Virus record (IMG/VR): IMGVR_UViG_3300031774_000196
Coordinates: 1-20,952 of that record
Source of the DNA: a virus
DNA: 20,952 nucleotides
Reading direction: 5' to 3' (one strand)
The notes under the pieces are model-generated. The model was not told the origin of the DNA. It was given only the letters and a program-made list of their open reading frames with translations, and did no database searches. The position numbers were made by a program, and so were the translations under genes. This document shows, piece after piece, positions 2,427 to 19,860 of the stretch. How positions within the stretch are numbered: the stretch's first letter is position 1; every line of letters begins with the position of its first letter.

Positions 2427-2927
2427 TTATAATTTATTTATATCTATATTAAGAACGTCCATTACGATTTTTCTTAATTGTTTTTCGTCACGACCTATTT
2501 TTTTACTATAGTCGTTAAATTTAATTGTATCTCTGCGTACACTTACGTCTTGGCCATATATATCATACCCAGCTTTTTTAAATGCGTCTTCTACATCCCT
2601 TCCATAAGCGCCGTTTCTTAATTTTAACTCATGATTACGATAATATCTAAAATCGTTTTCATCAAATTCATAGGTATTAGTTTTAGAATTGTATCTACCT
2701 TCGTCTATTTCAGCTTGGCCTTTGAGCATTCTTTTATTTCTTCTATCTAGTATTCTTCTAACAAAGGCTTTACCTTCTTTAGTTCTACCATCGTAAACTT
2801 TTTTCTTATGTTTTTTGTGAGCTGCTTTAGGCATCATATCAGCTGGCATTGATACACCACCGCCACCTACTGAATTTGCTGCAGCGTCTTCCCACATAGC
2901 TTCGTATTCTTTAAATGTTCTTTTCAT
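2427..2927 (-). CDS. Basic late-cassette protein with capsid-targeting-like leader, unknown function
   Basis: The 166-residue protein is rich in Lys and Arg. It begins MKRTFKEYEAMWE|DA, a leader of the type shared by many genes here, although the putative cleavage site (M-W-E before D) departs from the [L/I]-x-E|[A/G] form. A Gly-rich stretch follows (SVGGGGVSMPADMMP), then a very basic run HKKHKKKVYDGRTKEG and a helical C-terminus ending in VLNIDINKL. The positive charge would suit a DNA-associated internal capsid protein. Its ATG overlaps the stop of the upstream gene (ATGA). Confidence 0.8.
   Translation of the reverse strand: MKRTFKEYEAMWEDAAANSVGGGGVSMPADMMPKAAHKKHKKKVYDGRTKEGKAFVRRILDRRNKRMLKGQAEIDEGRYNSKTNTYEFDENDFRYYRNHELKLRNGAYGRDVEDAFKKAGYDIYGQDVSVRRDTIKFNDYSKKIGRDEKQLRKIVMDVLNIDINKL
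2435..2442 (-). promoter_or_regulatory. Possible T4-type late promoter before the ACP-spanin genes
   Basis: An exact TATAAATA on the minus strand lies within the end of the upstream gene, ten bases before the ATG at 2425. It fits late expression of lysis genes. In such AT-rich DNA one octamer can occur by chance, and transcription from it would leave almost no leader. Confidence 0.4.
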
Positions 2928-3400
2928 TTTTTCTTTTTCCTAATCTCTTTACCTATCAATTTTATGTCAGATTTATTTAATTTTTTCTTTTTTCCTTTAC
3001 GTTTAAATATACTAAATACTTTTCTACGTGATTTAGGAACTACTAATGTTAGTAATATTGCTCCTAATGTCACACCACCACCTATCATAGCTTTTGCAAA
3101 AATAGATGCAGCTAATTCTGCTGATATTTTTTTACCAGCGCTTGCGGCTAAAGCCATAACTAATTCTGTTCCAGCTGCTTGTGTTTTTATAACAGTAGTT
3201 AAATTATATTTTACAGCTATAGCACCTACAACTGTTGATTGTATTGCTGTTCTTATACTATAAGCTGGAAGTAATAATTTGCCTGCATTAACTCCAGCTC
3301 GTACTAATCCTGTAAATATTATTCTAGCTCCTAATACGACACCGGTAGTTGTAAATATTCCTTCATCTAATTCATATTCTTGAAAAGTAGCTATTGTCAT
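2924..3400 (-). CDS. Hydrophobic protein with capsid-targeting-like leader and basic tail
   Basis: The 158-residue protein opens with MTIATFQEYELDE|GIF, a strict [L/I]-x-E|G site at residue 13. Several hydrophobic, Ala/Gly-rich stretches follow (TTGVVLGARIIFTGLV, VVGAIAVKY, ELVMALAASAGKK, IGGGVTLGAILLTLVVP). The C-terminus is intensely basic (FKRKGKKKKLNK..., ending EIRKKKK). Hydrophobic helices plus a basic tail suggest a membrane-inserting protein. Combined with the leader, I infer that it is packaged and delivered, and might help DNA cross the host membrane. No family is recognised. It shares ATGA overlaps with both neighbours. Confidence 0.8.
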   Translation of the reverse strand: MTIATFQEYELDEGIFTTTGVVLGARIIFTGLVRAGVNAGKLLLPAYSIRTAIQSTVVGAIAVKYNLTTVIKTQAAGTELVMALAASAGKKISAELAASIFAKAMIGGGVTLGAILLTLVVPKSRRKVFSIFKRKGKKKKLNKSDIKLIGKEIRKKKK

Positions 3401-3567
3401 AGTTTTCCTCCAGCTGCTGCAAAAGCAGCTAAAGCCATATTTTTCTTTTCTTCGTCAGTCTTACCTTTAAATTGTGGAGCATCAGATTTCATGAAATCTT
3501 TTATCCATGCACCTACTCCATCAGATACAGACAACTTTTCGTATAATTTGAATGAAATTACCGACAT
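3397..3567 (-). CDS. Short phage protein (56 aa) with DAPQFKGK motif
   Basis: This short gene starts at the ATG at 3567, overlapping the end of the preceding gene by 10 nt, and stops in an ATGA overlap with the next gene. The product begins MSVISFKLYEKLSVSDG, continues GAWIKDFMKSDAPQFKGK, then TDEEKKNMALAAFAAAGGKL. The DAPQFKGK...K..MA.AA pattern is one I associate with small proteins of other marine T4-like phages; no function is known to me. The N-terminus (ISFKLYE) loosely resembles the leader of its neighbours without a strict cleavage site. The tight coupling on both sides and protein-like composition make it a real gene. Confidence 0.8.
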   Translation of the reverse strand: MSVISFKLYEKLSVSDGVGAWIKDFMKSDAPQFKGKTDEEKKNMALAAFAAAGGKL

Positions 3568-4151
3568 ATATCTCCATTGCTTATGTAAATATCTTGATTA
3601 GTCTTTGTATGTTTCACTCTATATATATTTATATTTTGAAACTTCCCGATTGGTTCTTGTAAACTATCTACGACCACTCTTGTATTTTTTAATGCTATTA
3701 CTTCTCCAGTTATTGGTGATGCCATATCTTCTGTTAATATATAATTACCCGGAAATAGATTTGAATCATCATCTTGATACCAAGTGCTTTCACTTAAATC
3801 ATATGGGTCAATTTCTATATCTAATGCTTTTTCTAGCATTTCCATCATTTTCTCATCTGACATATTAGTATGTTCTCTGATAAGAAATAAAGCTGCTCCA
3901 TATCTAGCTACTACAGACCTTCCACCAGGTACTTTACCTACAAGCCTTTTAAGATTAAATACGAGTCTGTGAAAAACAGTATAAGCAGATTTTTCTTCTG
4001 GCTTAGTTCTTTCCTTTGCTCGTTTTATAAGTTTGCCTTTTCCATCTATTATACCAAGTTTAAAAGCTTTAGTTTTCTCGAACGGAGTGACGAGCAATTT
4101 CAAAAATCGAAATGCGTAAAATAAATCTCCTGCTCTTGATACAAATGACAT
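3558..4151 (-). CDS. Conserved-looking phage protein of unknown function
   Basis: This 197-residue protein has no clear catalytic motif. The N-terminal half is basic and helical (FRFLKLLVTPFEKTKAFKLG, then GKLIKRAKERTKPEEKSAY), with a central TVFHRLVFNLKRLVGKVPGG and ARYGAALFLIREHTNMSDE, a helical bundle-like region. The C-terminal half looks beta-rich (LFPGNYILTEDMASPITGEV, then VVVDSLQEPIGKFQNINIYR). I believe related proteins are common in marine T4-like phages, but know no function. It lacks the capsid-targeting-like leader of its neighbours, although it lies inside the same run of coupled genes. Confidence 0.8.
   Translation of the reverse strand: MSFVSRAGDLFYAFRFLKLLVTPFEKTKAFKLGIIDGKGKLIKRAKERTKPEEKSAYTVFHRLVFNLKRLVGKVPGGRSVVARYGAALFLIREHTNMSDEKMMEMLEKALDIEIDPYDLSESTWYQDDDSNLFPGNYILTEDMASPITGEVIALKNTRVVVDSLQEPIGKFQNINIYRVKHTKTNQDIYISNGDICR
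3626..3633 (-). promoter_or_regulatory. Weak candidate late promoter octamer
   Basis: TATAAATA on the minus strand, inside the 3' end of the upstream gene and about 59 nt before the start of the 56-residue gene. Spacing is plausible for a late promoter. The surrounding sequence is nearly all A and T, so chance occurrence is quite possible. Confidence 0.25.
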
Positions 4152-4522
4152 TATAGTTCTCTTAATACCTCTACTATGTTTGGGTCCATTACAACCTCAA
4201 CCTTTTCCTCTTCCGGTAGATAGTGAAGATAGACTAAGAATGGTTTAATATATTGATAATGATTTTCTTCTATTTTAAACCACATCATCTTATTACAAGA
4301 TTCTATACCAAATACATTATATAGAACAATTATATGGTTGAGAATTAATCTTTCTTGTAATTCTCCATGTTCTTCGTATCTAGTAAGAAGCCTTTTAAGA
4401 TACTTAAATCTTGAAAGGTCATTCTTAAACTCTTCAACATCCGTACATTCCGGATTGTTATACTTTTGAGCTGCAAAAAGCTTAAAGTTCTTATTATTTA
4501 ATTCATCAAAAATTTTCATCAT
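4151..4522 (-). CDS. Conserved-looking phage protein of unknown function
   Basis: The 123-residue protein is predicted to be mostly helical. Its core reads FKNDLSRFKYLKRLLTRYEE, then GELQERLILNHIIVLYNVFG and ending near KPFLVYLHYLPEEE. This core is one I recognise as recurring in marine T4-like phages, without a function. It starts MMKIFDELNNKNFKLFAAQK, without the capsid-targeting-like leader. One base overlaps the next gene (TAATG). Position in the late cassette suggests a virion or assembly role, but that is inference only. Confidence 0.8.
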   Translation of the reverse strand: MMKIFDELNNKNFKLFAAQKYNNPECTDVEEFKNDLSRFKYLKRLLTRYEEHGELQERLILNHIIVLYNVFGIESCNKMMWFKIEENHYQYIKPFLVYLHYLPEEEKVEVVMDPNIVEVLREL

Positions 4523-4541
4523 ATAACTATATATAATCAGA

Positions 4542-5978
4542 TTACATATCGTCTAATTCTTTTTGAACCGCCTTTAAGTTTTTATGCTTAGACTCAACTC
4601 CTAAATTATCCTGTGCGAACTTAACAAGTTTAGAATCTGGTCCAGATATTTCAACGTCGTCATATCCATAACTTGAACCTACTACTTTTACTTTAAGACC
4701 AAGTTTCTTTGGATTATCTCCGCCGCCTTCATGTCCAGCATAACTTTTTACAGTAATTGTGCCTTCATTGACTTCTTCTTCATCTTCTTCAGAATCAGAT
4801 GATTCATCAAACATGCCTGAATCTTTCATCATTTTCATGGCATCTGCTTTAGCATTTCTTAAATTTTGTCTATTGATTTTTTCAACAGCTTTCTTAATAA
4901 GCTTTAAACGTTTATCCATATCAGCTTTTGATAAAGCTTCTTCTAAATCTTCTTCATCAGATTTAGCTGGTTTAGCATCAATTTCTTCAGCTTTAGCCTT
5001 ATAGTTTTTATCAACGTAATCAAAGAATTCTTTTTTCTTAGAATCATCTAAATCTTTAGGGGAATCAACACCAAACTTTTTAAGTGCTGCACTAAAGAAT
5101 TTTTGATAAGCTTTTTGCTTTTCAGATTCTTTTAATTTATCTTCGTCTACTTTAGACTCAGCTAATTGTGGAAATGTATCTTCGATTTCATCTTCGTCCA
5201 TAAGATAAGCATCTGATTTTAATAGTTTAATAATGTTTTTTCTATCACCTATTATATCAGCTGTAGTATTACCTGTTGATTTAATTTTAACTTTAAACTT
5301 TTTTTCAAGTTCTTTAGTTAATCTGTCATCACCGATATAGTCTACATCTAAGGTATCTTTACCACTTTTCTTTAGCTTTTCGCTAACACTAATAGTTGCT
5401 TCATTAACAGATTCATTTTTTTTATGATAATCTTTTAAATCGCTTTCTAAGTGACGTATACCGTATTCTAAAGCATTTTGGCCTGAATTTAATTCTTGAT
5501 AAGATTCTTTATAATCTCCATCAACCAGTTCTAAATCTTCAGGTATTTGCTTTATTAAGTCTCCTGTTTTATCAATAGCTTTTTCTAAATCTCTAACAAG
5601 TTTTTTTTCTTTAAATCCAAATGCTTCTTTAACTACAGTACCGTCTTCCTTTTCTCCGACTTTCTTGCCTTTATGTTTATCAGCAAAGTCTTTTTCACCA
5701 GAATCTTGTCCTAGTTTACCAGATGGTTTTTGTGGTTGTGCTACTTCACCAAGTGGTTCATGAGTCCAGCCCATTTTAGTATACTTCTCATGGTCTGCTT
5801 TATTCATGATTTTTACTTTTTTACCAGTTTCATGGTGATACATCATATGAGGATATTTTACTTCCTTTGTTTTTACTGGAGCAACTTCTTGCTCCTTAAC
5901 AGCTGGCTTGCCTTCGAGCACGTCGCGTACTGTGCTAGCAATGCTTTTTGTTATATCATCGTTAAATAAGTTGTTCAT
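4542..5978 (-). CDS. Large acidic/lysine-rich modular protein with internal protease-like linkers
   Basis: The 478-residue protein is very rich in Lys, Glu and Asp, and looks like a chain of small domains joined by charged linkers. The N-terminus ends in V-L-E|G (residue 22). Modules: a KYPHMMYHHETGKKVKIMNK region (41-75), a helical segment (120-185), a small alpha/beta module (about 205-260), a helical module (285-330, KAYQKFFSAALKKFGVDSPK), another helical one (350-390), and a second alpha/beta module (406-470). Boundaries carry NESVNE|A (188-194), DLEE|A (344-348) and EEVNE|G (401-406), which resemble prohead-protease sites. The start at 5978 has GGAGAG upstream. A scaffold-core or packaged polyprotein is possible; no single function is established. 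Confidence 0.8.
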   Translation of the reverse strand: MNNLFNDDITKSIASTVRDVLEGKPAVKEQEVAPVKTKEVKYPHMMYHHETGKKVKIMNKADHEKYTKMGWTHEPLGEVAQPQKPSGKLGQDSGEKDFADKHKGKKVGEKEDGTVVKEAFGFKEKKLVRDLEKAIDKTGDLIKQIPEDLELVDGDYKESYQELNSGQNALEYGIRHLESDLKDYHKKNESVNEATISVSEKLKKSGKDTLDVDYIGDDRLTKELEKKFKVKIKSTGNTTADIIGDRKNIIKLLKSDAYLMDEDEIEDTFPQLAESKVDEDKLKESEKQKAYQKFFSAALKKFGVDSPKDLDDSKKKEFFDYVDKNYKAKAEEIDAKPAKSDEEDLEEALSKADMDKRLKLIKKAVEKINRQNLRNAKADAMKMMKDSGMFDESSDSEEDEEEVNEGTITVKSYAGHEGGGDNPKKLGLKVKVVGSSYGYDDVEISGPDSKLVKFAQDNLGVESKHKNLKAVQKELDDM

Positions 5979-5992
5979 TTTTTCTCTCCGTT

Positions 5993-6307
5993 TTAACTAC
6001 TTAAATGAATTATATATTCCCAAGTTATTGCTGATATTAAACCAACTATAATAACCCAAAATATCTTGTTTATTACATTAACCGTTTGTGCATTGCTATT
6101 AACTAATTGCTCAACGCGGTCTATTCTATTTATAAGACTTTGTATTTGTTCTGACTGCTGCTTATTAAATTCAGCCAATGTCGAAATCTTTTCTTCAGCT
6201 CTCGCAAGCGCTATAATCGCCTGAGCCATCTGGTCCAATTTCTCTTCTATACGGTCTAACCTTTGTGATTGTACTGTATACACTTGTTTAATTTCCTTAT
6301 TGTCCAT
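5993..6307 (-). CDS. Coiled-coil protein with C-terminal membrane anchor
   Basis: Residues 1-70 of this 104-residue protein form a heptad-like coiled coil (QSQRLDRIEEKLDQMAQAII and EQIQSLINRIDRVEQLV). It is followed by one hydrophobic segment (INKIFWVIIVGLISAITWEYII, about 79-100) and a very short tail, so it is tail-anchored with the coiled coil on the cytoplasmic side. The layout resembles many small phage membrane proteins, including some holin-associated ones, but it does not identify a function. The ATG overlaps the 3' end of the cupin gene by 11 nt. Confidence 0.78.
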   Translation of the reverse strand: MDNKEIKQVYTVQSQRLDRIEEKLDQMAQAIIALARAEEKISTLAEFNKQQSEQIQSLINRIDRVEQLVNSNAQTVNVINKIFWVIIVGLISAITWEYIIHLSS

Positions 6308-6575
6308 CTTTGAATATTATCCTACATTTGAGTTTATTATACCCTTTGATTAATCGGTGATATTCACCTTTCGGTATATCGAATATCATGCCAGGTTCTA
6401 ACAAATATGGAAGACAGTTTTCGTATTGAAACCGCCAACCTTCACCTTCGAGGACTTCAATCTCACGAGCTTCATTATCACGATGCCAAACAAATTCTTC
6501 GTCGTCTCGATCGATAAAGAATTCTCTTAATTCTCCGCCTAGTTCTTTTTCGGATATGAAAGGAAGTTCTACCAA
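6297..6575 (-). CDS. Small cupin-fold protein
   Basis: The 92-residue protein fits a single cupin domain. Motif 1 is approximated by VWHRDNEAREIEVLEGEGW (residues 29-47) and motif 2 by EPGMIFDIPKGEYHRLIKG (61-79). Candidate metal ligands are His31, Glu36 or Glu38, and His74, in the pattern H..(E)...G then G.....P....H. Cupins include dioxygenases, isomerases and simple sugar- or metal-binding proteins, and the reaction cannot be told here. It overlaps genes on both sides within the late cassette and carries no capsid-targeting-like leader. The fold call is fairly good; the function is open. Confidence 0.72.
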   Translation of the reverse strand: MVELPFISEKELGGELREFFIDRDDEEFVWHRDNEAREIEVLEGEGWRFQYENCLPYLLEPGMIFDIPKGEYHRLIKGYNKLKCRIIFKDGQ

Positions 6576-6928
6576 AAGTAATTACCTCCACCTTTCAATC
6601 CAAGTTCTTTTGCATACTTTGGTAATCTGCACGCCCAGTATCCTGCCGACATCTTATCATTTTTTGTATCGCAATTATGTCTAGAAGCGAAGTTTCGAGC
6701 TGCGTCTTTGTTGTTTATCTTTGCAGTTAAACCACCCTTTGCATCTCCAAAATTTATTTTCTTAACATTTCCAGTCGTTGGATTTTTTACATATACAACA
6801 TATTTACTAGGACCTGAAGACCTTTTAGGTTTATTTAGTTCAGGACCTTCAATCATAGGTTGTTCTAATGGAACGTGAGCTCCTTCAAACAAACCAAATG
6901 TAGTTCTAAATTCATTAAAGCTTATCAT
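6569..6928 (-). CDS. Phage protein with capsid-targeting-like leader and YVVYVKNP/GYWACRLPKYAK domain
   Basis: The 119-residue protein begins MISFNEFRTTFGLFE|GAHVP, with a strict L-F-E|G site after residue 15. The rest is a compact basic domain: YVVYVKNPTTGNVKKINFGD, then AARNFASRHNCDTKNDKMSA, then GYWACRLPKYAKELGLKGGG ending NYFW. I recognise this domain (KNP.TG.V..I.FG....ARxFA.RH.C...GYW.CRLP) as widespread in phages, often fused to other domains, but know no function. The two Cys are in HNC and WACR. The leader and domain suggest a small processed virion or ejected protein. Confidence 0.85.
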   Translation of the reverse strand: MISFNEFRTTFGLFEGAHVPLEQPMIEGPELNKPKRSSGPSKYVVYVKNPTTGNVKKINFGDAKGGLTAKINNKDAARNFASRHNCDTKNDKMSAGYWACRLPKYAKELGLKGGGNYFW

Positions 6929-6929
6929 T

Positions 6930-7418
6930 TTACTTTACAGCTTTTAACTTTTTCATAGCATCATTAGCTTGTTTAGTTAATTCATCTATTTTATCGTAAT
7001 AGCTATATAATTCTTTTTTGTGTTTTTGTTGGTCTTCTTTTGACATACTTTCTAAAGACCCTTTCATGCTTTCTAATCTAAGAATAGCATTCTCATATTT
7101 ACCTTTAGCCATTCGGAGCTTTTTAATTTGTTTAGAAGTTTTAGCCATTTGTTTATTAAATCTTCTATCAGCTCTTCCTTGTTTATTATATCTCCTATAT
7201 AGGAATTTACCAGAACCCCACATAGTTTTGATACCGTTTACAACTAAAAATTTAATTATAAGACCTAATAGCTTTAATACTTTCCATATAAACTCTTGTA
7301 ATTCAAAAACTACCTGACTAACTACAGGACTTAATTCTTGAAGATTTTTTAAGTCTTCTTCTGTAATTTCTTTAGAAGGTTTTTTACTTAAATTTCTGTG
7401 TTCTTTAAATGTTATCAT
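6930..7418 (-). CDS. Membrane plus coiled-coil protein with capsid-targeting-like leader
   Basis: The 162-residue protein begins MITFKEHRNLSKKPSKEITE|E, a leader like that of its neighbours with a looser I-T-E site at residue 20. A hydrophobic helix lies about residues 43-62 (VLKLLGLIIKFLVVNGIKTM). A basic region follows (KFLYRRYNKQGRADRRFNKQ) and then a long coiled coil to the end (AKTSKQIKKLRMAKGKYENA onward). The combination resembles the hydrophobic-basic protein at 2924-3400. Membrane engagement after ejection is a reasonable guess, not shown. It has an ATGA overlap with the preceding gene. Confidence 0.8.
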   Translation of the reverse strand: MITFKEHRNLSKKPSKEITEEDLKNLQELSPVVSQVVFELQEFIWKVLKLLGLIIKFLVVNGIKTMWGSGKFLYRRYNKQGRADRRFNKQMAKTSKQIKKLRMAKGKYENAILRLESMKGSLESMSKEDQQKHKKELYSYYDKIDELTKQANDAMKKLKAVK

Positions 7419-7639
7419 CGTTTTAAATCGTATCTAAACGAACGTCCTCTGGTTTGACCTGCTTTAGTTATTTTAAATCTAGCTATTCTTGCAATCTGGT
7501 TAACATGTTCAAGGTTGCCTTTTTTCATGTCTTTTTCTAGTTCTAGTTTTACTTTCTTCCATATAGTATCTAATATGGAAGAGTCATCCATTACTAATGG
7601 TGCTTCATCTATTTTAGCATGTTCTTTAAAGTTTTTCAT
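7415..7639 (-). CDS. Small basic protein with strict capsid-targeting-like leader
   Basis: This 74-residue protein starts MKNFKEHAKIDE|APLVMDD, giving a strict I-D-E|A site after residue 12. The remaining 62 residues are basic and mostly helical, ending RFKITKAGQTRGRSFRYDLK R. After removal of the leader it would be about the size of the small T4 internal capsid proteins. No family is recognised. It overlaps both neighbours by a few bases and must be co-translated. Confidence 0.8.
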   Translation of the reverse strand: MKNFKEHAKIDEAPLVMDDSSILDTIWKKVKLELEKDMKKGNLEHVNQIARIARFKITKAGQTRGRSFRYDLKR

Positions 7640-8478
7640 TAATCCCTTGGTGTCGGCTTAGATAATATATCTCTAGCTTTTGCTTTGTTTCGTTTTAACA
7701 TTTCCATGCCATCATCTATATAACTAGATAAAGTACCATAAGGTAATCCTTTCCATTTTTTACCGTCTTGATGAGCAAGATATTTAGCGATTCTTAATCC
7801 ATCATAAGCTCCACCATCATCTCGTGTATACATACCTTCTTCTAGTGGTAATGATTGTAGCCATTTTTCTATTTTCTTTTTAGTTCCATGAACTGTTAAT
7901 TGTACACCTAAAACACCGCCTTCAAAATCAGTATCTAGTCCAGCTTTTTGAGCAAGTTTATCAGCGATTTTTGCAGTTTTTCTTGACATATCAACTAGCT
8001 GAAATTTGTCTTCGTTAATAGATTCATTAACATCATCTTTAAGTAATTTCTTAATCTTATCAAGAGCTGATAGTTTACCTTTTCCTAAGTCGTTATAATG
8101 TTTTATTAACTGTCTTTTTTGCATACGAGAAAGGTCTTTTGATTTTAGTTCAACGCTTCTTTTCACAATACGAGAAAATGCTTGTGCTTTCTTTTCAGCT
8201 GGTTTTACTAAAGCTTGTAAATTTTCTTCAACTGATTCATTTTTAGCTAGATGTTTTTCGAAATCTTTTTTCTTTCCTTTATCCCATAGGTCTCCCAATT
8301 CAACATATAGTTTAGAATTAATCATTTTTCCTGGCTTAACAGCATGAGATACTCTCACCGCTAGCTCTTTGGACATTCCTTTAAATCTATCTAACGCTCT
8401 TTTAACTAAAGCTTTTTGGTGATGTTTTGGTCCACCTATTTCTTCAATTTCTTTTCTTACTTCTTTTAGCTTTTTCAT
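7639..8478 (-). CDS. Modular lysine-rich protein with NES[VI]xE linkers
   Basis: I place the start at the ATG at 8478, which overlaps the upstream stop as ATGA. The longer reading (8511) lies inside the preceding gene. The 279-residue protein has three or four modules. Residues 18-80 are basic (RVSHAVKPGKMINSKLYVEL), then comes linker NESVEE (80-85). Residues 86-150 form a helical segment, then linker NESINE (151-156). An alpha/beta module spans about 157-210, with L-E-E|G at 212-215. A C-terminal module begins MYTRDDGGAYDGLRIAKYLA. The alpha/beta module resembles those in the 4542-5978 and 9491-9733 proteins. It has no N-terminal leader of the strict type. I do not know its function. Confidence 0.8.
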   Translation of the reverse strand: MKKLKEVRKEIEEIGGPKHHQKALVKRALDRFKGMSKELAVRVSHAVKPGKMINSKLYVELGDLWDKGKKKDFEKHLAKNESVEENLQALVKPAEKKAQAFSRIVKRSVELKSKDLSRMQKRQLIKHYNDLGKGKLSALDKIKKLLKDDVNESINEDKFQLVDMSRKTAKIADKLAQKAGLDTDFEGGVLGVQLTVHGTKKKIEKWLQSLPLEEGMYTRDDGGAYDGLRIAKYLAHQDGKKWKGLPYGTLSSYIDDGMEMLKRNKAKARDILSKPTPRD

Positions 8479-9494
8479 GCTGAAAAATCCTCCGCATTTT
8501 TGTCTAACCAATCGATGAATTCATCTGGGTCGTCTGTTGCAATTTCGCCATGGTCAAATGCCCAACCAAATAAAGCTTCTTCAGCATCAGCTGGAAATTC
8601 AAGACTTCCTTTATCTAGAGTCTTTTTAATCACTCTACCATATTTTCTTTTGATTTGTCTTTGGTTTAAGTTTTTCATAAATCCTTCATTAACAGATTCA
8701 TTAGCTAATCTTAATGCATTCATGACAACTGGATCGTCGCTTAATCCTTTTTTTAATTTTTCGATAGCATTAATAGCACCTGTCATATTACCCATGTAAT
8801 ATTTCTTATCAAAGGCTATTTTAACTGCTTTTTGAACTAATCTATCTGGATATGATTTAGCTTCGTTAACCTCTTTACTTTCCAAATTAGTTTTTGCTTT
8901 ACGGCCCAATTTTTTCTTAATTTTCTTTCCAGCATTTCTAAGTTTATTCATAATCGTATCAAAAATACCTTCAGCAATTTGTGGTTTATTAGGAGTAAAT
9001 GTACCTTCCCACATAATTTCAGCTCTGGTTGCATCTTCAACAGCATATGCTAATTCTTCTCTTGTCATAGTATCACCAGCACCTAATTGTCTTGGTAATT
9101 TTTCGAATTGTTTATTCATTTCATTATAAACGAAACCAGCTAAATTTGAATCACCCATACTAGCTGAATTCTTTTTAACTAAAGCTTTGAGGTATTTGTT
9201 CATTTTTGCATTTTCTTTACTAGCTAAGGCTTTCATTTTATCTTGTGGGTCTGTACTTTTGCCTGTTAAAAATGCAAAATAGTAATCACCATCATTAACT
9301 GGATAACTAAGTGCCATAAAACTGTTTGCCTTATTTTGATTAGGTTCATATACAATCATATCAGCTTCGTTATCCAATATCCACTGTTGTTCTTCTTTAT
9401 CGATACCAATTTTCTTAGCATATTTTTCTATAGGCATTTGTTTTGACATACCTTCTGTTAAGAAATTTTCTCTTAGTTGTTTAAATTTAATCAT
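8475..9494 (-). CDS. Modular protein with leader and several internal cleavage-like sites
   Basis: This 339-residue protein begins MIKFKQLRENFLTE|GMSK, a strict L-T-E|G site after residue 14. Internal candidates are MWE|G (161-164), IAE|G (173-176, strict), EVNE|A (208-212) and NESVNE|G (265-271). Between them are an alpha/beta domain (about 20-130), a short very basic piece (FDTIMNKLRNAGKKIKKKLG), a helical module (SYPDRLVQKAVKIAFDKKYY, GLSDDPVVMNALRLA) and an acidic C-terminal module (EEALFGWAFDHGEIATDDPD). Full cleavage would release several peptides of about 40-150 residues. The modules recur, in my memory, in marine phage proteins; no function is known to me. Confidence 0.8.
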   Translation of the reverse strand: MIKFKQLRENFLTEGMSKQMPIEKYAKKIGIDKEEQQWILDNEADMIVYEPNQNKANSFMALSYPVNDGDYYFAFLTGKSTDPQDKMKALASKENAKMNKYLKALVKKNSASMGDSNLAGFVYNEMNKQFEKLPRQLGAGDTMTREELAYAVEDATRAEIMWEGTFTPNKPQIAEGIFDTIMNKLRNAGKKIKKKLGRKAKTNLESKEVNEAKSYPDRLVQKAVKIAFDKKYYMGNMTGAINAIEKLKKGLSDDPVVMNALRLANESVNEGFMKNLNQRQIKRKYGRVIKKTLDKGSLEFPADAEEALFGWAFDHGEIATDDPDEFIDWLDKNAEDFSA

Positions 9495-9733
9495 TTTGCT
9501 TTCCTCATTGTTTCTTTAGCTTCTCCTTTACTTAAGCCGAATGTTGTATGTAGCCACTTATATAAATCTTTAGGTTGTCCTTCTACAGTCATTTCATTCT
9601 TTCTTTTATTCCAGTTGTATAAGTATACACCTTCTTCTTCCCAGTCAGGACTAAATTCTCTTGGGTCACCGACATCAAAATCTAAAACAACTCTTTGTGT
9701 CTTAGCTTCTCTAATTTCTTTAAACGTTCTCAT
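9491..9733 (-). CDS. Single alpha/beta-module protein with strict leader
   Basis: The 80-residue protein begins MRTFKEIREAK. I-R-E|A after residue 9 is a strict prohead-protease-like site, leaving 71 residues. The body is one small module: strands around TQRVVLDFDVGDP and YLYNWNKRKNEMTVEG, then a helix DLYKWLHTTFGLSKGEAKET. The signature (hydrophobic)-T/D-V/I-x-G, four or five residues, K-W/L-L resembles the modules inside the 7639-8478 and 4542-5978 proteins. It looks like the free-standing form of a domain that the larger proteins carry in tandem. No enzyme motif is visible. Confidence 0.8.
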   Translation of the reverse strand: MRTFKEIREAKTQRVVLDFDVGDPREFSPDWEEEGVYLYNWNKRKNEMTVEGQPKDLYKWLHTTFGLSKGEAKETMRKAK

Positions 9734-9735
9734 AT

Positions 9736-11001
9736 TTATTTTCCTCTTACTTTGTCGGCCAAGTCTTTGTCAGCCTTTCCCCAAGTTCCACTTGATTTTG
9801 TTGTAAATGAATTAACTCTTGCTAATCCCCATTGAACTGCATTTGTTCCAGGTCTATGTCCTGTCTTCCAAGCTGCAACTCCTCTTTGAAATACTTTCTT
9901 TAATATAGGTAATGGCATACCAGATTTATCAGCCTTTTTCTTTAAAGCTGCATCTGAATTTTCTACTACATAATCTTCAAATGTCAAATATTCTGCCATT
10001 TCACCAAACATCTTTTTATACTTTGGAAGGCCTGTGTGATATTTAGCTGCTGCAGCTTGTCCGTTTCTATTATTAATCTGAGTAGTTTCAGCTTCTTGAC
10101 AATGAGCAGCTAGTGGTATATCTCCAGACTCTGGAGTATCTTTGAGATAACGAGCTGTAGTAGCATCTGTACCAAGCTCATTATATTCAGCTAATTCTAT
10201 AGCATCAATCCAATATCTATTCTTACCAAGTTCAGATTCTACTATAACATAATTAGGACCACATACTACAATTTCTCCAGTAGTATTTGATTCTTTTATA
10301 TTAACAATATCTCCTTCTTGGAATAGATTGCCGCCGATATATTCTTCTCTTCTTTGAGAAACAACTGGTAAGTCAACATGTTGTCTAAAAGTATTTTCTA
10401 ATTTTAGACCCATGCCTTTTCTTACAGCATTGAATAGGTCAGTTGGATTGAACTTAGCCGGTAATCCTTTTGCAAAACCAGCTAAGTCATTCTGTTGAGC
10501 GGTCATGCGCATTTTAGAAGCAGACATTCCAGAAGTTCCTTCGGAATCTGGGTCTCTTTCTCCTGCGCTTACTACATTTATAGCACCTTCGAAATTATAA
10601 AAACCATGTCTAGAGTCGACACCATTATATTTGTTTAATAGTATATCAAACTCATGTACACGGTCGCTGCCTACAACCATTGTTAATTTAGTATATCCTT
10701 GGTCGTACAATTTCACTGCAATATCCAGTACTGTACGAACATCTTTATCTGACATTATCTGACGCGCATGTTTAGGAAACATTTTACGTAAAAATTTTAA
10801 TTTATCTTTAAATTTTAATGGATTGTTTTTAGCATCTTCTGATTTAGATGCATATATTCTATAACTGCCGCCTCTTGATTGTTTTTTGATTTTATCAAAT
10901 AGTTTTTCATGACCTATTGTAGGCGGATTGAAACGTCCAAAAGCGAACGTTATTTCTTTGTTGTTTTCAGTTAAATAATCACTGAATGATTGTATCGACA
11001 T
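9736..11001 (-). CDS. HIGH-motif nucleotidyltransferase fused to SH3-like and phage C-terminal domains
   Basis: The N-terminal 200 residues of this 421-residue protein are a cytidylyl/adenylyltransferase-fold domain. FGRFNPPTIGH (21-31) is the T/HxxH nucleotide-binding motif, VVGSD (109-113) follows, and SGMSASKMR (157-165) matches the ISSTxxR signature. Such enzymes join a nucleotide to a small phosphorylated substrate (NMN, phosphopantetheine or glycerol phosphate type); the substrate here is unknown. Residues 228-268 (EGDIVNIKESNTTGEIVV...) look like an SH3/KOW barrel. Residues 350-421 form a C-terminal domain (ILKKVFQRGVAAWKTGHRPG, WGLARVNSFTTKSSGTWGKA) that I recognise as common in phages. 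The leader MSIQSFSDYLTE|N fits the local pattern loosely, and a similar string (TFEDYVVE|N, 340-348) precedes the C-terminal domain. The start has GAGG upstream. Confidence 0.87.
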   Translation of the reverse strand: MSIQSFSDYLTENNKEITFAFGRFNPPTIGHEKLFDKIKKQSRGGSYRIYASKSEDAKNNPLKFKDKLKFLRKMFPKHARQIMSDKDVRTVLDIAVKLYDQGYTKLTMVVGSDRVHEFDILLNKYNGVDSRHGFYNFEGAINVVSAGERDPDSEGTSGMSASKMRMTAQQNDLAGFAKGLPAKFNPTDLFNAVRKGMGLKLENTFRQHVDLPVVSQRREEYIGGNLFQEGDIVNIKESNTTGEIVVCGPNYVIVESELGKNRYWIDAIELAEYNELGTDATTARYLKDTPESGDIPLAAHCQEAETTQINNRNGQAAAAKYHTGLPKYKKMFGEMAEYLTFEDYVVENSDAALKKKADKSGMPLPILKKVFQRGVAAWKTGHRPGTNAVQWGLARVNSFTTKSSGTWGKADKDLADKVRGK

Positions 11002-11020
11002 TTATATCCTCGGTTCCCAT

Positions 11021-12262
11021 TTAGCCTGGATTATCCCAGCCTTTTATAATATCTTTGCTGAAGTTGTTAGTAGAGAATTCTAATCTGTCTACTAATTTAA
11101 CAGCACCACCTTCCATTCGATCTATAGCCACAAAGCCTTCTACGCCGGTGACTTTAAATCCGGATTTTGTTTTAACAAACGTACCCATATTTGATAGTTT
11201 GTTTAGTTTATTTATAATAATTATTTTGCTATCTGTCACATAATTGTGTAAATCAAATATTAATTCTAATTGGTCTAAATTATCATCGCTAAAAAATGAT
11301 AGTAGTTCATCTCTTTTATCTATTTGTACTTGTTTACCAGCATCTGAACTTCTTTTATCGATAGCTTTTGCATATCTATCTTTAACAAACATAATTAAAC
11401 CTTTTGCGTGTTTAGCAGTATTTTCAATTCTTTGACCTTCTCTTACTTTTCTGTTGTTGTAGATATTGATAACTAGGTTTAATTCTTTATTATCTTCAAT
11501 TTCTTTTAATGATTTTGATGCAATCTTTTGGAATACTCTACCAGCATTTGATAGATTTGAATTTAACATAGATGTTTCTGATGCCGTTAATGTTGCTGTA
11601 CCTGATACATCTTTTAGTGTTGCATCGTCTTGCCAAACGTCTCTATCTTTTTTTAATTTACTAACTATATCTCTACCAAATTCAGCCTTCATTGTTTCAA
11701 ATGATTTGCCACTGTACGATGTATGCCAAACTATACCAATCTTAGCTTTCTGTATATCTTTTGCTAATCTACTACCAAGTGGTACAGCATATAAGATAGT
11801 ATTAGGATGGAAAGTAATATATCCAACTCCATTTATTCTCTCCTTTTTTAAATCACTTGCATCAAACATAAAATCTCCTTGGATAACATCTTTGATGCCC
11901 AAGTCTTTTAAATGGTCAAATGCAAGTTTTAGTTTTTTACTTAAATCACCTGATGTATCTGCATCGATATCAGCATGACTCTTATAAATTTTTGGGGATT
12001 TAGCAAATATGCCTTTTTTAGCTACGAAAAATTGACCATCTTCTGGGTCTTCTCCAGCAAAAACGGCGGGGGCTCCGTCCCATTTGACAGTAATATCTAT
12101 AGGTGCTTTAGTATTACCGCTCAACATATCACGCATACTTCTTAGTGCGTTGATAGCTTGGCGAGCCCCCTTAACTCCTCCGTCAAGTATTAAATCCTCA
12201 ATATGAGTCATATGAGTATTTTTACCTGCGGCTTCTGATAAGTAGTTCTTTAATGTTTTCAT
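11021..12262 (-). CDS. Ligase-like covalent nucleotidyltransferase with capsid-targeting-like leader
   Basis: This 413-residue protein begins MKTLKNYLSE|AAGK, very like the T4 IPIII leader (MKTYQEFIAE|A). The body carries the ordered signatures of ATP-dependent DNA/RNA ligases: motif I VKWDGAPA with Lys60 (KxDG), a QGDFMF segment (128-133), YITFHPNTILYAV (148-160, motif III-like), EGFV (375-378, motif IV) and VKLVDR (388-393, motif V). About 200 helical residues separate the III-like and IV regions, longer than in classic ligases. I believe it belongs to a large phage family known only as a domain of unknown function. Nucleic-acid sealing or end adenylation is the best guess. Catalysis is unproven, and motif VI is not evident. 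Confidence 0.82.
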   Translation of the reverse strand: MKTLKNYLSEAAGKNTHMTHIEDLILDGGVKGARQAINALRSMRDMLSGNTKAPIDITVKWDGAPAVFAGEDPEDGQFFVAKKGIFAKSPKIYKSHADIDADTSGDLSKKLKLAFDHLKDLGIKDVIQGDFMFDASDLKKERINGVGYITFHPNTILYAVPLGSRLAKDIQKAKIGIVWHTSYSGKSFETMKAEFGRDIVSKLKKDRDVWQDDATLKDVSGTATLTASETSMLNSNLSNAGRVFQKIASKSLKEIEDNKELNLVINIYNNRKVREGQRIENTAKHAKGLIMFVKDRYAKAIDKRSSDAGKQVQIDKRDELLSFFSDDNLDQLELIFDLHNYVTDSKIIIINKLNKLSNMGTFVKTKSGFKVTGVEGFVAIDRMEGGAVKLVDRLEFSTNNFSKDIIKGWDNPG

Positions 12263-13341
12263 TAGTTTCCGAATTTCTTTGGTAGATTAAAATGTTTCAT
12301 GAAAGGAGGAGTCACTGCCCAACTTCCATCTTCTGATTTTACATAACAAGCCGAACCAGTTTGTTGTCCATATCCTCTGATATGTAATCCAGCTTTCACA
12401 CCATGTTTATCAATAGGATATGTTTTCTTAAGTAGTTCAGTTATTGTTTCTGTTGGTTCACCCTTTAAAAAGCAATTGGCAGTAGCAGGATGATTTTTAC
12501 CAAATTTATTTGCTCCACTAAATACTTCAGTTGATTCGTCGTTATCTAGCCAGATTCCAGTATTGTTCTTTTTATCTTTTACAAACCAATGCATTGTAGG
12601 ACTTCTTTCTCCAATCTCTCCAGCATTAAGTCTTTTATGCATATCCATTATAATTCTAATTGCTTTACTTTCACCAAATATCTGTTCCATTCTTTCTGGC
12701 TTCATCCAATTTTCTATAAATGTAGCATTATCAGCTTTTAAACTATATTTTAATTCATCACCGTATCCTTTTAAGTTTTCAGCTAGTTTTACATATAAGT
12801 CTGTTTTAGGATTACCACCTATGCCTTTTGGTGTAGGAGGAGATGATAATTCAGTAATATGATATTCTTTTCCTCTATGTTCAAATTCCCAATTCCCGCC
12901 TGAACCATTTATAAACACATTAGCAATTTGTCCTTCATGGCCATGGCCACCCTTAAAAGGCTTCCAGACATCTGGATTAATTTTATCTTTTAAATCTACT
13001 TGAATGTAATCTACTTTTTTACCGGACGGTTTTAGTATTTTACTTAAAGGTAATCTATACTCGCTTCCTTTATATTTGATTTTAGCAGTATAAGACTTAC
13101 CGTTTACTTCTAAATCTTTTTCTTCACGGTCTAAGATTTTGAATTCTTGACCCTTTTTGATTGTTTTATCTGTAGGTACACCTTCTAAGTCTAATAAAAC
13201 TGAATCTTTATCAGCTTCGTAATCCATATTTTGGTCTGCGGCTTTTTCTACATACTTGTAAAAAGCACCGGTAGGTTGTGAATAATTGACTGTTCTACCA
13301 GATAAGGTTGCTTCGTATATAAAAGATTTTAAGGTTTTCAT
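12262..13341 (-). CDS. Putative PD-(D/E)XK-type nuclease with capsid-targeting-like leader
   Basis: The first gene after the late promoter encodes 359 residues beginning MKTLKSFIYE|ATLS, a strict I-Y-E|A site. Residues 174-216 read IGGNPKTDLYVKLAENLKG, YGDELKYSLKADNATF, IENWMKPE. P178-K-T-D181, then S200-L-K202, with Glu216 fourteen residues after the Lys, fits the D...SxK-X13-E arrangement of restriction enzymes such as NgoMIV and Cfr10I, a variant of PD-(D/E)XK. The N-terminal 110 residues look beta-rich and might bind DNA. The C-terminus includes HIRGYGQQTGSACYVKSEDG. The nuclease call rests on this short motif only. If right, it would be a DNA-cutting protein delivered with the genome. 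It shares one base with the ligase-like gene. Confidence 0.6.
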   Translation of the reverse strand: MKTLKSFIYEATLSGRTVNYSQPTGAFYKYVEKAADQNMDYEADKDSVLLDLEGVPTDKTIKKGQEFKILDREEKDLEVNGKSYTAKIKYKGSEYRLPLSKILKPSGKKVDYIQVDLKDKINPDVWKPFKGGHGHEGQIANVFINGSGGNWEFEHRGKEYHITELSSPPTPKGIGGNPKTDLYVKLAENLKGYGDELKYSLKADNATFIENWMKPERMEQIFGESKAIRIIMDMHKRLNAGEIGERSPTMHWFVKDKKNNTGIWLDNDESTEVFSGANKFGKNHPATANCFLKGEPTETITELLKKTYPIDKHGVKAGLHIRGYGQQTGSACYVKSEDGSWAVTPPFMKHFNLPKKFGN

Positions 13342-13369: not shown

Positions 13370-13377
13370 TATTTATA
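13370..13377 (-). promoter_or_regulatory. T4-type late promoter opening the packaged-protein cassette
   Basis: An exact TATAAATA on the minus strand lies in the 41-nt intergenic gap between the early small genes and the 12262-13341 gene, 29 nt before its ATG at 13341. In T4 this octamer is recognised by gp55-loaded RNA polymerase. It marks a plausible switch from early genes to late, virion-related genes. Confidence 0.7.
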
Positions 13378-17694: not shown

Positions 17695-17723
17695 ATTATA
17701 TCATAAAATCAGTCAATTGTAAA
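17695..17723 (-). promoter_or_regulatory. Sigma70-type promoter for bS21-uvsX-gp41
   Basis: Minus strand: TTTACA (17723-17718), 17-nt spacer ending in TGA, TATAAT (17700-17695). Most of it lies inside the 3' end of the methyltransferase gene. The predicted leader of about 26 nt carries AGGAG before the bS21 ATG. Confidence 0.85.
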
Positions 17724-18883
17724 CTGTTTTTTTCATATTCATACGTTCTTTTTTTGTTATCTTGAACTAAGAACTTTGTGTCAATCATTTCAAGATTACC
17801 AGCTAAATATTCCTTAACCATTCTTGCTGGATGTTCAGCTGTAGTCACTGGCACATTTTGGCAAATATGATTTAATGACCTTTTAGGATTAAGTAATATA
17901 AAGTTATCTGGTAGTTTCATTAAAGATAGAGCTTCTCTTACTGTTAAATATCTATCTTCATCTGGATGAGTTAAGCATGTTGGCATATGACCGACAAAAG
18001 CTCCTATTTTATCTTTAGGTATTTCAGTTGTCTTTCTCATTATATTGCCACCTGCTTTCAGTTTATGATATTGTCTATCGCATTTCTTTGCTACATTATC
18101 ATATCCTTTTTCACGCATCCATTTAGCAACTTCTTTATAAGTTGTTCTTTCTTCTATATAATCCATTGGATTAGTAGTTTTGTCTATTTTCTCTTGGAAC
18201 TCACTATGGGTAATACCACCCTCTAACTCCTCTAATACATATTTATAATACGGCTCTTCGGAAGGAGTCTTATCGTTAGTTAATATTTGACTCATTGGGT
18301 CTTCTTCTTTTCTTTCAACTGCTCTTATATCGTCAGCTATCATGGTTGGTCTTTCTAATACGTAATCAAATAATGGTACTTCTTCTCCTTTCCAAAAGAA
18401 ATAAAATGTTCTATCTCTTACTTGACTCAATCCATGTAATATCGATTTTGTTTTAAAGATACTAAAAGTATAGCCATTATCTTCTCCTATCTTTCTTAAT
18501 CTTTTTACAACAGGTTCTCCCATCTTACTAGCTAACCTAGGAGCATTCTCTCCCCAAAATACTTTTGGTTGTACCTCACCAAGAACATATTCTGCAGACT
18601 TATACATCCATTCGTTCATAGGATTATTACTTGCAGCTGATGGACTCAGTGAGCTCAGCCCTGCACATGGGCATACAGTATTAATCACATGAACTTTTTC
18701 TGTGTAGCTCGCTCCCTCTGAGAGGTTCAAATATGGGACCTCATTGTTATAATAGTGTCTTAAGTGAGATTCATTAGCTTGAAATCCCTCGAACGTTAGA
18801 AAATACTTTGGCTTTTCTCCAAAGACATTTTCCATTGCTATTGTCTCTCCACCAATTAATGGTACTATACTCGCATAACTCAT
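17696..18883 (-). CDS. Divergent C5-cytosine DNA methyltransferase
   Basis: I choose the ATG at 18883 (ATGA overlap with the upstream stop, GGAG eight bases away), giving 395 residues. It transfers a methyl group from SAM to C5 of cytosine. Motif IV is VCPCAGLSSLSP (about 70-81) with the catalytic Cys73. Motif VI is WGENAPRL (110-117), where GEN stands for the usual ENV. Motif VIII is QVRDRTFYFF (154-163), and the C-terminus has LTVREALSLMKLPDNF and HICQNVPVTTAEHPARMVKE (motifs IX-X). Motif I is degenerate: SIVPLIGGET instead of DLFxGxGG. The target-recognition region would be about 170-310. It probably protects phage DNA against restriction, though it could act on a modified base. Confidence 0.87.
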   Translation of the reverse strand: MSYASIVPLIGGETIAMENVFGEKPKYFLTFEGFQANESHLRHYYNNEVPYLNLSEGASYTEKVHVINTVCPCAGLSSLSPSAASNNPMNEWMYKSAEYVLGEVQPKVFWGENAPRLASKMGEPVVKRLRKIGEDNGYTFSIFKTKSILHGLSQVRDRTFYFFWKGEEVPLFDYVLERPTMIADDIRAVERKEEDPMSQILTNDKTPSEEPYYKYVLEELEGGITHSEFQEKIDKTTNPMDYIEERTTYKEVAKWMREKGYDNVAKKCDRQYHKLKAGGNIMRKTTEIPKDKIGAFVGHMPTCLTHPDEDRYLTVREALSLMKLPDNFILLNPKRSLNHICQNVPVTTAEHPARMVKEYLAGNLEMIDTKFLVQDNKKRTYEYEKNSLQLTDFMI

Positions 18884-19860
18884 ACGAAAAACTCCTCTAA
18901 ACCTGCTGCTTCGATTCCATTCCAATATGGATAGAATTCTCTTGACAGATGAATTGATTGTGGCTTCTCCATATATTGAAAATCGAGTTCGCCTTTTTGA
19001 TTATATAAATGTTGTGTCCATCTTATGATACCATATTCTTTTTCAATATAGTCATTAAACTTATTTCTTGCATCATTTCTTTCATTCCAAGAACCATAAA
19101 ATGGTTGTCCTTTGTAATATCCTGATTGTGGTATTCTTCTATGTGGAGCTTCAATTGGTAATAATTCGTGTATCTTAGCTCCATACTTAAAAGCTTCTTC
19201 AATATATCTATCAGCTAAATCTTCTATTTTTAAACCTAATCGTATCACATGGTGACGTATGTCTATATTTCCAAAATAACATTCTAACTCTGTAAAGTCG
19301 TGTGGTATAAAATTATGAAATCCTTCGTTTAAAGCTCCATTCAAAGTCTTAAAAGGAACAGAATTTACTGTCCAGCCTGGACGATACATGCAGATGGAAT
19401 GACTATCACCAATAACTATTTTACTAGTTGGATTAGGATAGTCCACTCTTTCAGCTGTATTGAACATTCGTTCTAGATTTACTAAATCTACTTCCATCCA
19501 TTCCGGTTGAACTTCTTTCTTAGCAGATTCCAATTTCTGTTTAACCATCTCGTGATACGGCGGGAAGTCGATTCCAATTGAAAAGACTCTGCCTTTAAAC
19601 TTAGAAAAGTTGACAGTGTTCTTAACATAAGGAAAACCGTATACGCCACCAAACATATTAATTCCACCAGACCAATCAGTGCCGTGATAGACCCAAAGAC
19701 TATCATAAACATTGTGGTCTTGAATTTCTCCACCATAGTTAACATCGCAGTTTCCATATTTCTCCTTTATCATATCTCCATACATTACTCCTGCAGCTCC
19801 TCTATGAGAACCTGGCCTTTTGGCAATAGGAATAAATGGACAATTAATTATATTTTTCAT
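18880..19860 (-). CDS. SGNH-like hydrolase-fold protein in the DNA-modification block
   Basis: The 326-residue protein begins with PFIPIAKRPGSHRGAAGVMY and a Gly-rich first third. Residues 147-155 (KIVIGDSHS) resemble SGNH block I (GDS), CYFGNIDIRHH (194-204) block III (GxN), and PQSIHLS (300-306, His304) the DxxH block. Together they suggest an esterase or transferase fold, but the catalytic Asp is not evident. Its promoter gives a nearly leaderless mRNA. It lies between a glycosylase-like protein and the methyltransferase, so it might alter DNA, nucleotides or a surface sugar. I do not recognise a precise family, and the SGNH call rests on short motifs. Confidence 0.7.
   Translation of the reverse strand: MKNIINCPFIPIAKRPGSHRGAAGVMYGDMIKEKYGNCDVNYGGEIQDHNVYDSLWVYHGTDWSGGINMFGGVYGFPYVKNTVNFSKFKGRVFSIGIDFPPYHEMVKQKLESAKKEVQPEWMEVDLVNLERMFNTAERVDYPNPTSKIVIGDSHSICMYRPGWTVNSVPFKTLNGALNEGFHNFIPHDFTELECYFGNIDIRHHVIRLGLKIEDLADRYIEEAFKYGAKIHELLPIEAPHRRIPQSGYYKGQPFYGSWNERNDARNKFNDYIEKEYGIIRWTQHLYNQKGELDFQYMEKPQSIHLSREFYPYWNGIEAAGLEEFFV

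Follow-up and report, generated by a model that had tools for sequence, protein, structure and literature searches.

The window analyzed here, a 20,952-base IMG/VR fragment (record IMGVR_UViG_3300031774_000196), carries its genes of interest on the minus strand, and three of these, g4542, g7639, and g8475, encode chains of small modules parted by short motifs that resemble prohead protease sites (Table 1). The modules, designated by M numbers, are approximately 40–100 residues long and reappear, differently ordered, in other genes. The start of g7639 is most likely the ATG at 8478, giving 279 residues, rather than 8511. A match to phrog_28651 falls on M6 of g4542.

Table 1. Features of the window discussed in the text (CTS, capsid-targeting sequence; ↓, predicted cut; aa, amino acids; nt, nucleotides)
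Feature	Position	Strand	Description
g4542	4542..5978	-	478 aa; N-terminal FNDDIT..VLE↓G tag, then M2/M3, M4, M5, M6, M7, M8
g4542 VLE↓G	5910..5921	-	E22, tag end
g4542 VKE↓A	5622..5633	-	E118
g4542 NESVNE↓A	5397..5408	-	E193, M4/M5 junction
g4542 LAE↓S	5154..5165	-	E274, M5 end
g4542 LKE↓S	5124..5135	-	E284, M6 start
g4542 LEE↓A	4935..4946	-	E347, M7 start
g4542 EEEVNE↓G	4761..4772	-	E405, M8 start
g7639	7639..8478	-	279 aa; basic N-terminal part, then M11, M12
g7639 linker NESVEE↓N	8224..8241	-	Residues 80–85; P1′ = N, weaker site
g7639 linker VNE↓SINE↓D	8011..8031	-	E152, E156 (NESINE↓D, residues 151–156); precedes M11
g7639 LEE↓G	7834..7845	-	E214, precedes M12
g8475	8475..9494	-	339 aa; CTS-like tag LTE↓G, then M16, cationic segment, M13, M14
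g8475 LTE↓G	9450..9461	-	E14, tag end
g8475 MWE↓G	9003..9014	-	E163
g8475 IAE↓G	8967..8978	-	E175
g8475 EVNE↓A	8859..8870	-	E211, precedes M13
g8475 NESVNE↓G	8682..8693	-	E270, M13/M14 junction
Gene block	2427..13341	-	Majority of proteins with capsid-targeting-like N-terminal tag
Cytidylyltransferase	9736-11001	-	Tagged-block member
DUF6267 protein	11021-12262	-	Tagged-block member
Late promoter motif	13370..13377	-	T4-type, TATAAATA; 28 nt ahead of first block gene

A preliminary description of this DNA had pointed to a repeated linker in the three proteins, and all the copies it listed were found: NESVNE↓A and EEEVNE↓G in g4542, NESVEE and NESINE in g7639, and EVNE↓A and NESVNE↓G in g8475. 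In the two g7639 copies P1′ is Asn or Asp. Relative to 20,000 residue shuffles with the three proteins pooled, ES[VI]xE occurs four times (0.05 expected), [LIV]xE[AG] ten times (2.45 expected, P = 2e-4), and [LIVM]xE[AGS] 14 times (4.0 expected, P < 5e-5). The strict internal sites also singled out earlier, LEE↓A, LEE↓G, and IAE↓G, are present, but [LI]xE[AG] by itself comes to four against 1.7 expected (P = 0.09, not significant) and, being near chance, was not used as evidence. Taken on its own, g7639 has no significant excess of sites over its residue shuffles. Seven [LIVM]xE[AGS] sites had been overlooked, the N-terminal sites of g4542 and g8475 among them: VLE↓G22, VKE↓A118, LAE↓S274, and LKE↓S284 in g4542; VNE↓S152 in g7639; LTE↓G14 and MWE↓G163 in g8475.

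Relatives were gathered with each of the three proteins and with three module alignments. Across 174 proteins of marine T4-like phages the modules form 55 orders and 43 neighbor pairs; as in polyvalent proteins, one polypeptide contains several domains and these are shuffled between genomes. M13 (GNMTGAY) occurs at at least 555 places in IMG/VR, and the extreme chains contain seven recognized modules with nine sites (L007 585–2552) or 962 residues with 11 sites (L066 940–3828). Linkers are kept while modules shuffle, the comparison of homologs that the preliminary description had itself put forward as a check. Heavy shuffling, together with 18 bases (AATGAATCTGTTAATGAA) identical in g4542 and g8475, would also be expected if the linkers were DNA-level recombination sites for module exchange, with no role in proteolysis. 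However, Glu, Ser, and Val codons in 76 linkers follow the background use of the genes, with no fixed DNA sequence, and the conserved element is an amino-acid pattern with a variable P2. Recombination sites were rejected on the grounds of background-like codon use, and we give the idea almost no credence.

The placement of sites was counted in 108 non-redundant proteins containing 199 modules. With module limits drawn by eye and sites in view, which makes the interior depletion partly circular, [LIVM]xE[AGS] occurs at 42.1 per 1000 residues in start flanks, 33.5 in end flanks, and 0.4 in module interiors; control motifs (Lys or Asp for Glu, Glu moved, charged P3) are flat, with no flank/interior pattern. 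Because of the way these limits were drawn, the count was repeated with site-blind boundaries, defined as the ends of BLAST alignments inside two proteins that both continue. Densities were then 12.2 per 1000 at boundaries and 1.5 in interiors (Fisher p 7e-41, on non-independent data), with controls again flat. The earlier statement that sites lie at module boundaries and not inside modules is thus borne out by both counts. Acidic composition does not explain the flank motif, since permuted flank sequences contain 24.4 ± 4.4 occurrences against 135 observed. Inside modules, with the limits drawn by eye and hence the same partial circularity, the ratio of observed to expected is 0.26 for [LIVM]xE and 0.06 when Ala, Gly, or Ser must follow, compared with 1.14 and 1.28 in the other proteins of G001, a 128-kb relative. 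Flank-to-interior counts, subject to that circularity as well, favor Leu, Val, or Ile at P3, Glu at P1 (204 to 2), and Gly, Ala, or Ser at P1′, followed there by Asp, Glu, or Lys. Among 22 distinct contexts that precede M15, M12, and M7, Glu occupies P1 in all 22, P3 is Leu, Ile, Val, or Met in 19, and P1′ is Gly or Ala in 20; the same aliphatic set and Met occupy P2, P4, and P6 in 1, 3, and 2 contexts, respectively. It is well supported that the gp21-type sites between exchangeable modules are under selection.

The specificity suggested by these alignments, L/V/I-x-E↓G/A/S, fits the L/I-x-E motif of the T4 prohead protease gp21 (PMC9026906), and each of the four relatives whose records exceed 60 kb (G001, G003, C48C1, and Melnitz-2) encodes gp21. 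Its neighbors in G001 are gp22 and gp23. The major head protein gp23 has ISE↓A at the expected pro-site and the scaffold gp22 contains VVE↓G, VPE↓G, and LGE↓G, which makes Val at P3 plausible for the clade.

The three genes lie in a block of a marine T4-like phage. The window helicase has distant nucleotide matches in T4-like cyanophages, the families to which the cytidylyltransferase and the DUF6267 protein belong are those of marine T4-like phages, and the helicase, DUF6267, cytidylyltransferase, and small genes follow one another as in Kyanoviridae such as HTVC008M, S-SM1, C48C1, and Melnitz; S-CREM2 shares the cytidylyltransferase part of this arrangement. As a side observation, the cytidylyltransferase (9736–11001) has a C-terminal DUF5824 module with its own PHROG (phrog_28338), a further sign of module fusion. 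Tags within the block include MKTLKSFIYE↓A, MKTLKNYLSE↓A, MRTFKEIRE↓A, MIKFKQLRENFLTE↓G, MKNFKEHAKIDE↓A, MISFNEFRTTFGLFE↓G, MTIATFQEYELDE↓G, and others. Short N-terminal tags with a gp21-type site are present in g4542 (VLE↓G22) and g8475 (LTE↓G14), and the g7639 N-terminus (..KEIEE↓I) does not clearly have one. In the syntenic block of G001, 10 of 19 genes have N-terminal sites, compared with 10 of 156 elsewhere (p = 1.8e-6).

The same module can follow either a tag or a linker. M12 stands alone in L014 behind MKFNEFRSKMKINE↓GVYTRDDGG (a ..KINE↓G tag), and inside fusions follows SVNE↓GVYTKNDGG or LEE↓GMYTRDDGG junctions; solo tags MKTISQIRE↓AS and MKTFKELRE↓A precede M6 and M14, respectively. 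Cutting would give solo-tagged and linked modules an identical mature start. The tag MMKFKQLREKYIEE↓ASFSSS of L008 likewise has an internal counterpart, YIEE↓ASFSSS, in L023. Such identity of internal and tag junctions is also what fusions that kept an old tag end would produce, and the linkers are low-confidence acidic stretches in structure models, as they might be if only the N-terminal tag were cut and internal linkers were unprocessed flexible spacers or gene-fusion leftovers. We consider this improbable: residues ahead of P1 vary with context while the hydrophobic P3 and the P1 Glu are kept, the pattern exceeds the expectation from composition, and the motif is found after M5 as well as ahead of modules.

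The three proteins are probably head-packaged modular polyproteins, which gp21 would cut into small folded cargo for delivery to the host. On balance, abundant marine T4-like phages appear to use their head-maturation protease to process polyproteins: small modules from a shared lexicon would be combined in variable arrangements, each chain with a single capsid-targeting tag, and separated in the prohead, so that one gene may load several proteins for injection. In the proposed mechanism, a short N-terminal capsid-targeting-like tag would carry each chain into the prohead core, and gp21, an S77 protease, would cut after Glu at L/V/I-x-E↓G/A/S at the tag end and in the inter-module linkers. Several small folded modules of approximately 6–9 kDa, some larger, would be released, remain in the head, and pass into the host along with the DNA, like the internal proteins of T4. 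A module could be its own gene behind a tag or a polyprotein element behind a linker with an identical result once cut, and modules would be freely shuffled because the cut product is the same from either. From sequence, we infer the cutting by gp21 at these sites, the retention of the pieces, and their delivery.

The chief live rival is that the proteins are cut as components of the prohead core, like T4 gp22, gp67, and gp68, and that the pieces are mostly expelled and are not cargo. The core proteins of T4 undergo cleavage at several positions and for the most part leave the head, gp22 of G001 has eight of the motifs (3.2 expected), and the predicted pieces of the modular chains are mostly below 10 kDa. 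Furthermore, the C48C1 gene directly before gp21 (L031 1233–1430), in the place of T4 gene 68, starts MRTFKELRE↓AK, the same kind of tag as in cargo genes and close to the MRTFKEIRE↓AK of window gene 9491–9733, which suggests a common core-binding signal in pre-gp21 and cargo genes and also speaks for the packaged-polyprotein interpretation. A tag of the same kind, MLSFVELREK, starts the G001 gene just before gp21 (L035 13472–13696). However, G001 has separate gp22 and gp67-like genes, the modules resemble conserved folded units that avoid sites, and the block includes enzymes (cytidylyltransferase) that are present in mature virions of relatives. In the PHROG comparison the three proteins match no head or prohead family and show no sequence relationship to gp22, gp67, or gp68. 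Expulsion as core material is judged unlikely, with a probability that is nevertheless appreciable.

Several block proteins are known from virions of cultured relatives. Mass spectrometry of S-CREM2 virions detected gp154 (cytidylyltransferase), gp155, gp156, and gp160, with a warning from its authors that co-purification is possible (PMC10665884). All four map to the syntenic block, where gp154 begins with MKNFSSFLTE↓A, and both NLRE↓G and KIEE↓G occur in gp155. The S-SM1 block cytidylyltransferase gp190, detected in virions (PMC3037559), starts MKKFSAFLNE↓A. At the head of the block, TATAAATA also precedes the corresponding gene of G001 (24 nt), S-CREM2 (20 nt), and Melnitz-2 (39 nt); it was not found before the tested genes of HTVC008M or S-SM1. 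Whole-locus counts of TATAAATA do not clearly exceed chance in three of the four loci, so the motif is informative only through its location at the block head, which recurs in relatives. The late promoter, the neighboring block proteins in S-CREM2 and S-SM1 virions, and the enrichment of N-terminal sites in the block all argue against the proteins acting unpackaged in the infected cell, with tag and sites incidental. In relatives the block is flanked by replication genes, the helicase on one side and primase/nrdA on the other, and no virion is known to contain any of the three window proteins in the published mass spectrometry (S-CREM2, S-SM1), as such a role would predict; we regard it as very unlikely all the same.

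Some observations weigh against packaged, gp21-cut cargo, including that gap in virion detection and the partial circularity of the interior depletion noted above. No cleavage or peptide termini have been observed at the sites, gp21 is absent from the 21-kb window fragment (itself incomplete), and some linkers have Asp, Glu, Asn, or Lys at P1′. Total site density in G001 is not raised in the block (3.1 per 1000, elsewhere 3.8). A [LIVM]xE[AGS] motif also lies inside the enzyme region of the virion protein S-SM1 gp190, so the motif may occur in a folded part. The proposal in the preliminary description that the prohead protease could cut the proteins into small peptides is partly supported: the kept linkers, the gp21-like specificity, gp21 in relatives, ISE↓A in gp23, and the block proteins in virions speak for it, and cleavage, full site occupancy, and persistence of the pieces as delivered cargo are predictions.

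AlphaFold models are weak overall, with mean predicted local distance difference test (pLDDT) scores of 65.8 for g4542 and 62.3 for g8475. Sites lie in, or at most three residues from, segments with pLDDT below 50 in seven of seven cases in g4542 (P = 0.0009) and four of five in g8475 (P = 0.09). Searched against Pfam and NCBIfam, the three proteins yielded no domain that passed the cut-off, and at that level they lack the enzymatic or effector domains of polyvalent proteins. A PDB sequence search with g4542 gave no significant match, and a fold search of its model against the PDB gave weak KH-like or ACT-like matches (best E 0.17) that were not relied on. One viral match to the g4542 model, of approximately 71 residues, is to an uncharacterized protein, and no reliable function emerged from the fold searches. 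As tblastn queries, g4542 and g7639 had no match among named phages. Residues 176–211 of g8475 (window 8862–8969), from IAE↓G to VNE↓A, carry a charge of +7 with a pI of 10.3 and are predicted to be helical (GIFDTIMNKLRNAGKKIKKKLGRKAK...). Akin basic segments occur in relatives (L024, GFFKNLFRKLKRRGVRLLRPKG). If released, the g8475 segment might bind DNA or membrane.

Known systems offer partial parallels. The T4 internal proteins (IPI, IPII, IPIII, and Alt) likewise have a short tag ending in hydrophobic-x-E and a small residue, late expression, and variable cargo under a common tag, and they are cut by gp21, the type of protease that relatives of the window phage encode. However, as described, each of their genes supplies a single cargo and loses propeptides only at the ends, whereas here sites also part several modules per chain and modules move between genes. 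The T4 core proteins gp22, gp67, and gp68 are likewise single chains with several L/I-x-E sites, which gp21 cuts in T4, and some of their fragments stay in the head, but they are degraded scaffolds; the window proteins are conserved module strings with sites at the edges and exist alongside genes for gp22 and a gp67-like protein. Polyvalent proteins of phages and conjugative elements, such as P1 DdrB and DarA (Iyer et al. 2017, PMC5512222), have many shuffled domains, are likely packaged, and have been proposed to be processed. Their domains are recognizable and often enzymatic, with zincin-like peptidases proposed for processing, in contrast to the small, mostly unannotated modules here, whose sites match the head protease. 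Among the head ejection proteins of giant phages (the phiKZ gp175 and SPN3US gp245 systems), several head proteins are cleaved on the C-terminal side of Glu by a protease related to gp21, but the published processing is propeptide removal (PMC5694885, PMC7411985) and not multi-module release. As far as searchable literature shows, none of the T4 internal, T4 core, and polyvalent systems places sites for the head protease between small, shuffled modules, and no description of modular gp21-cut phage polyproteins was found in the literature searched, which covered a minority of subscription journals.

If the polyprotein interpretation is correct, one could read from sequence what some very common viruses of the ocean carry as cargo, every module flanked by two L/V/I-x-E↓G/A/S sites being a predicted packaged protein, most without known function. 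Tailed phages would be shown to use a modular polyprotein for virion cargo, many "hypothetical" marine phage genes would be accounted for, and the function of capsid-targeting tags beyond T4 would become directly testable.

Elsewhere in the window, overlapping genes at 1110–1628 and 1579–1956 resemble a spanin pair, one product having a lipoprotein-like N-terminus and the other a membrane anchor and coiled coil. Judged by eye, a 71-residue protein (1956–2171) is acyl carrier protein-like, and the product of 17696–18925 resembles a C5 DNA methyltransferase.

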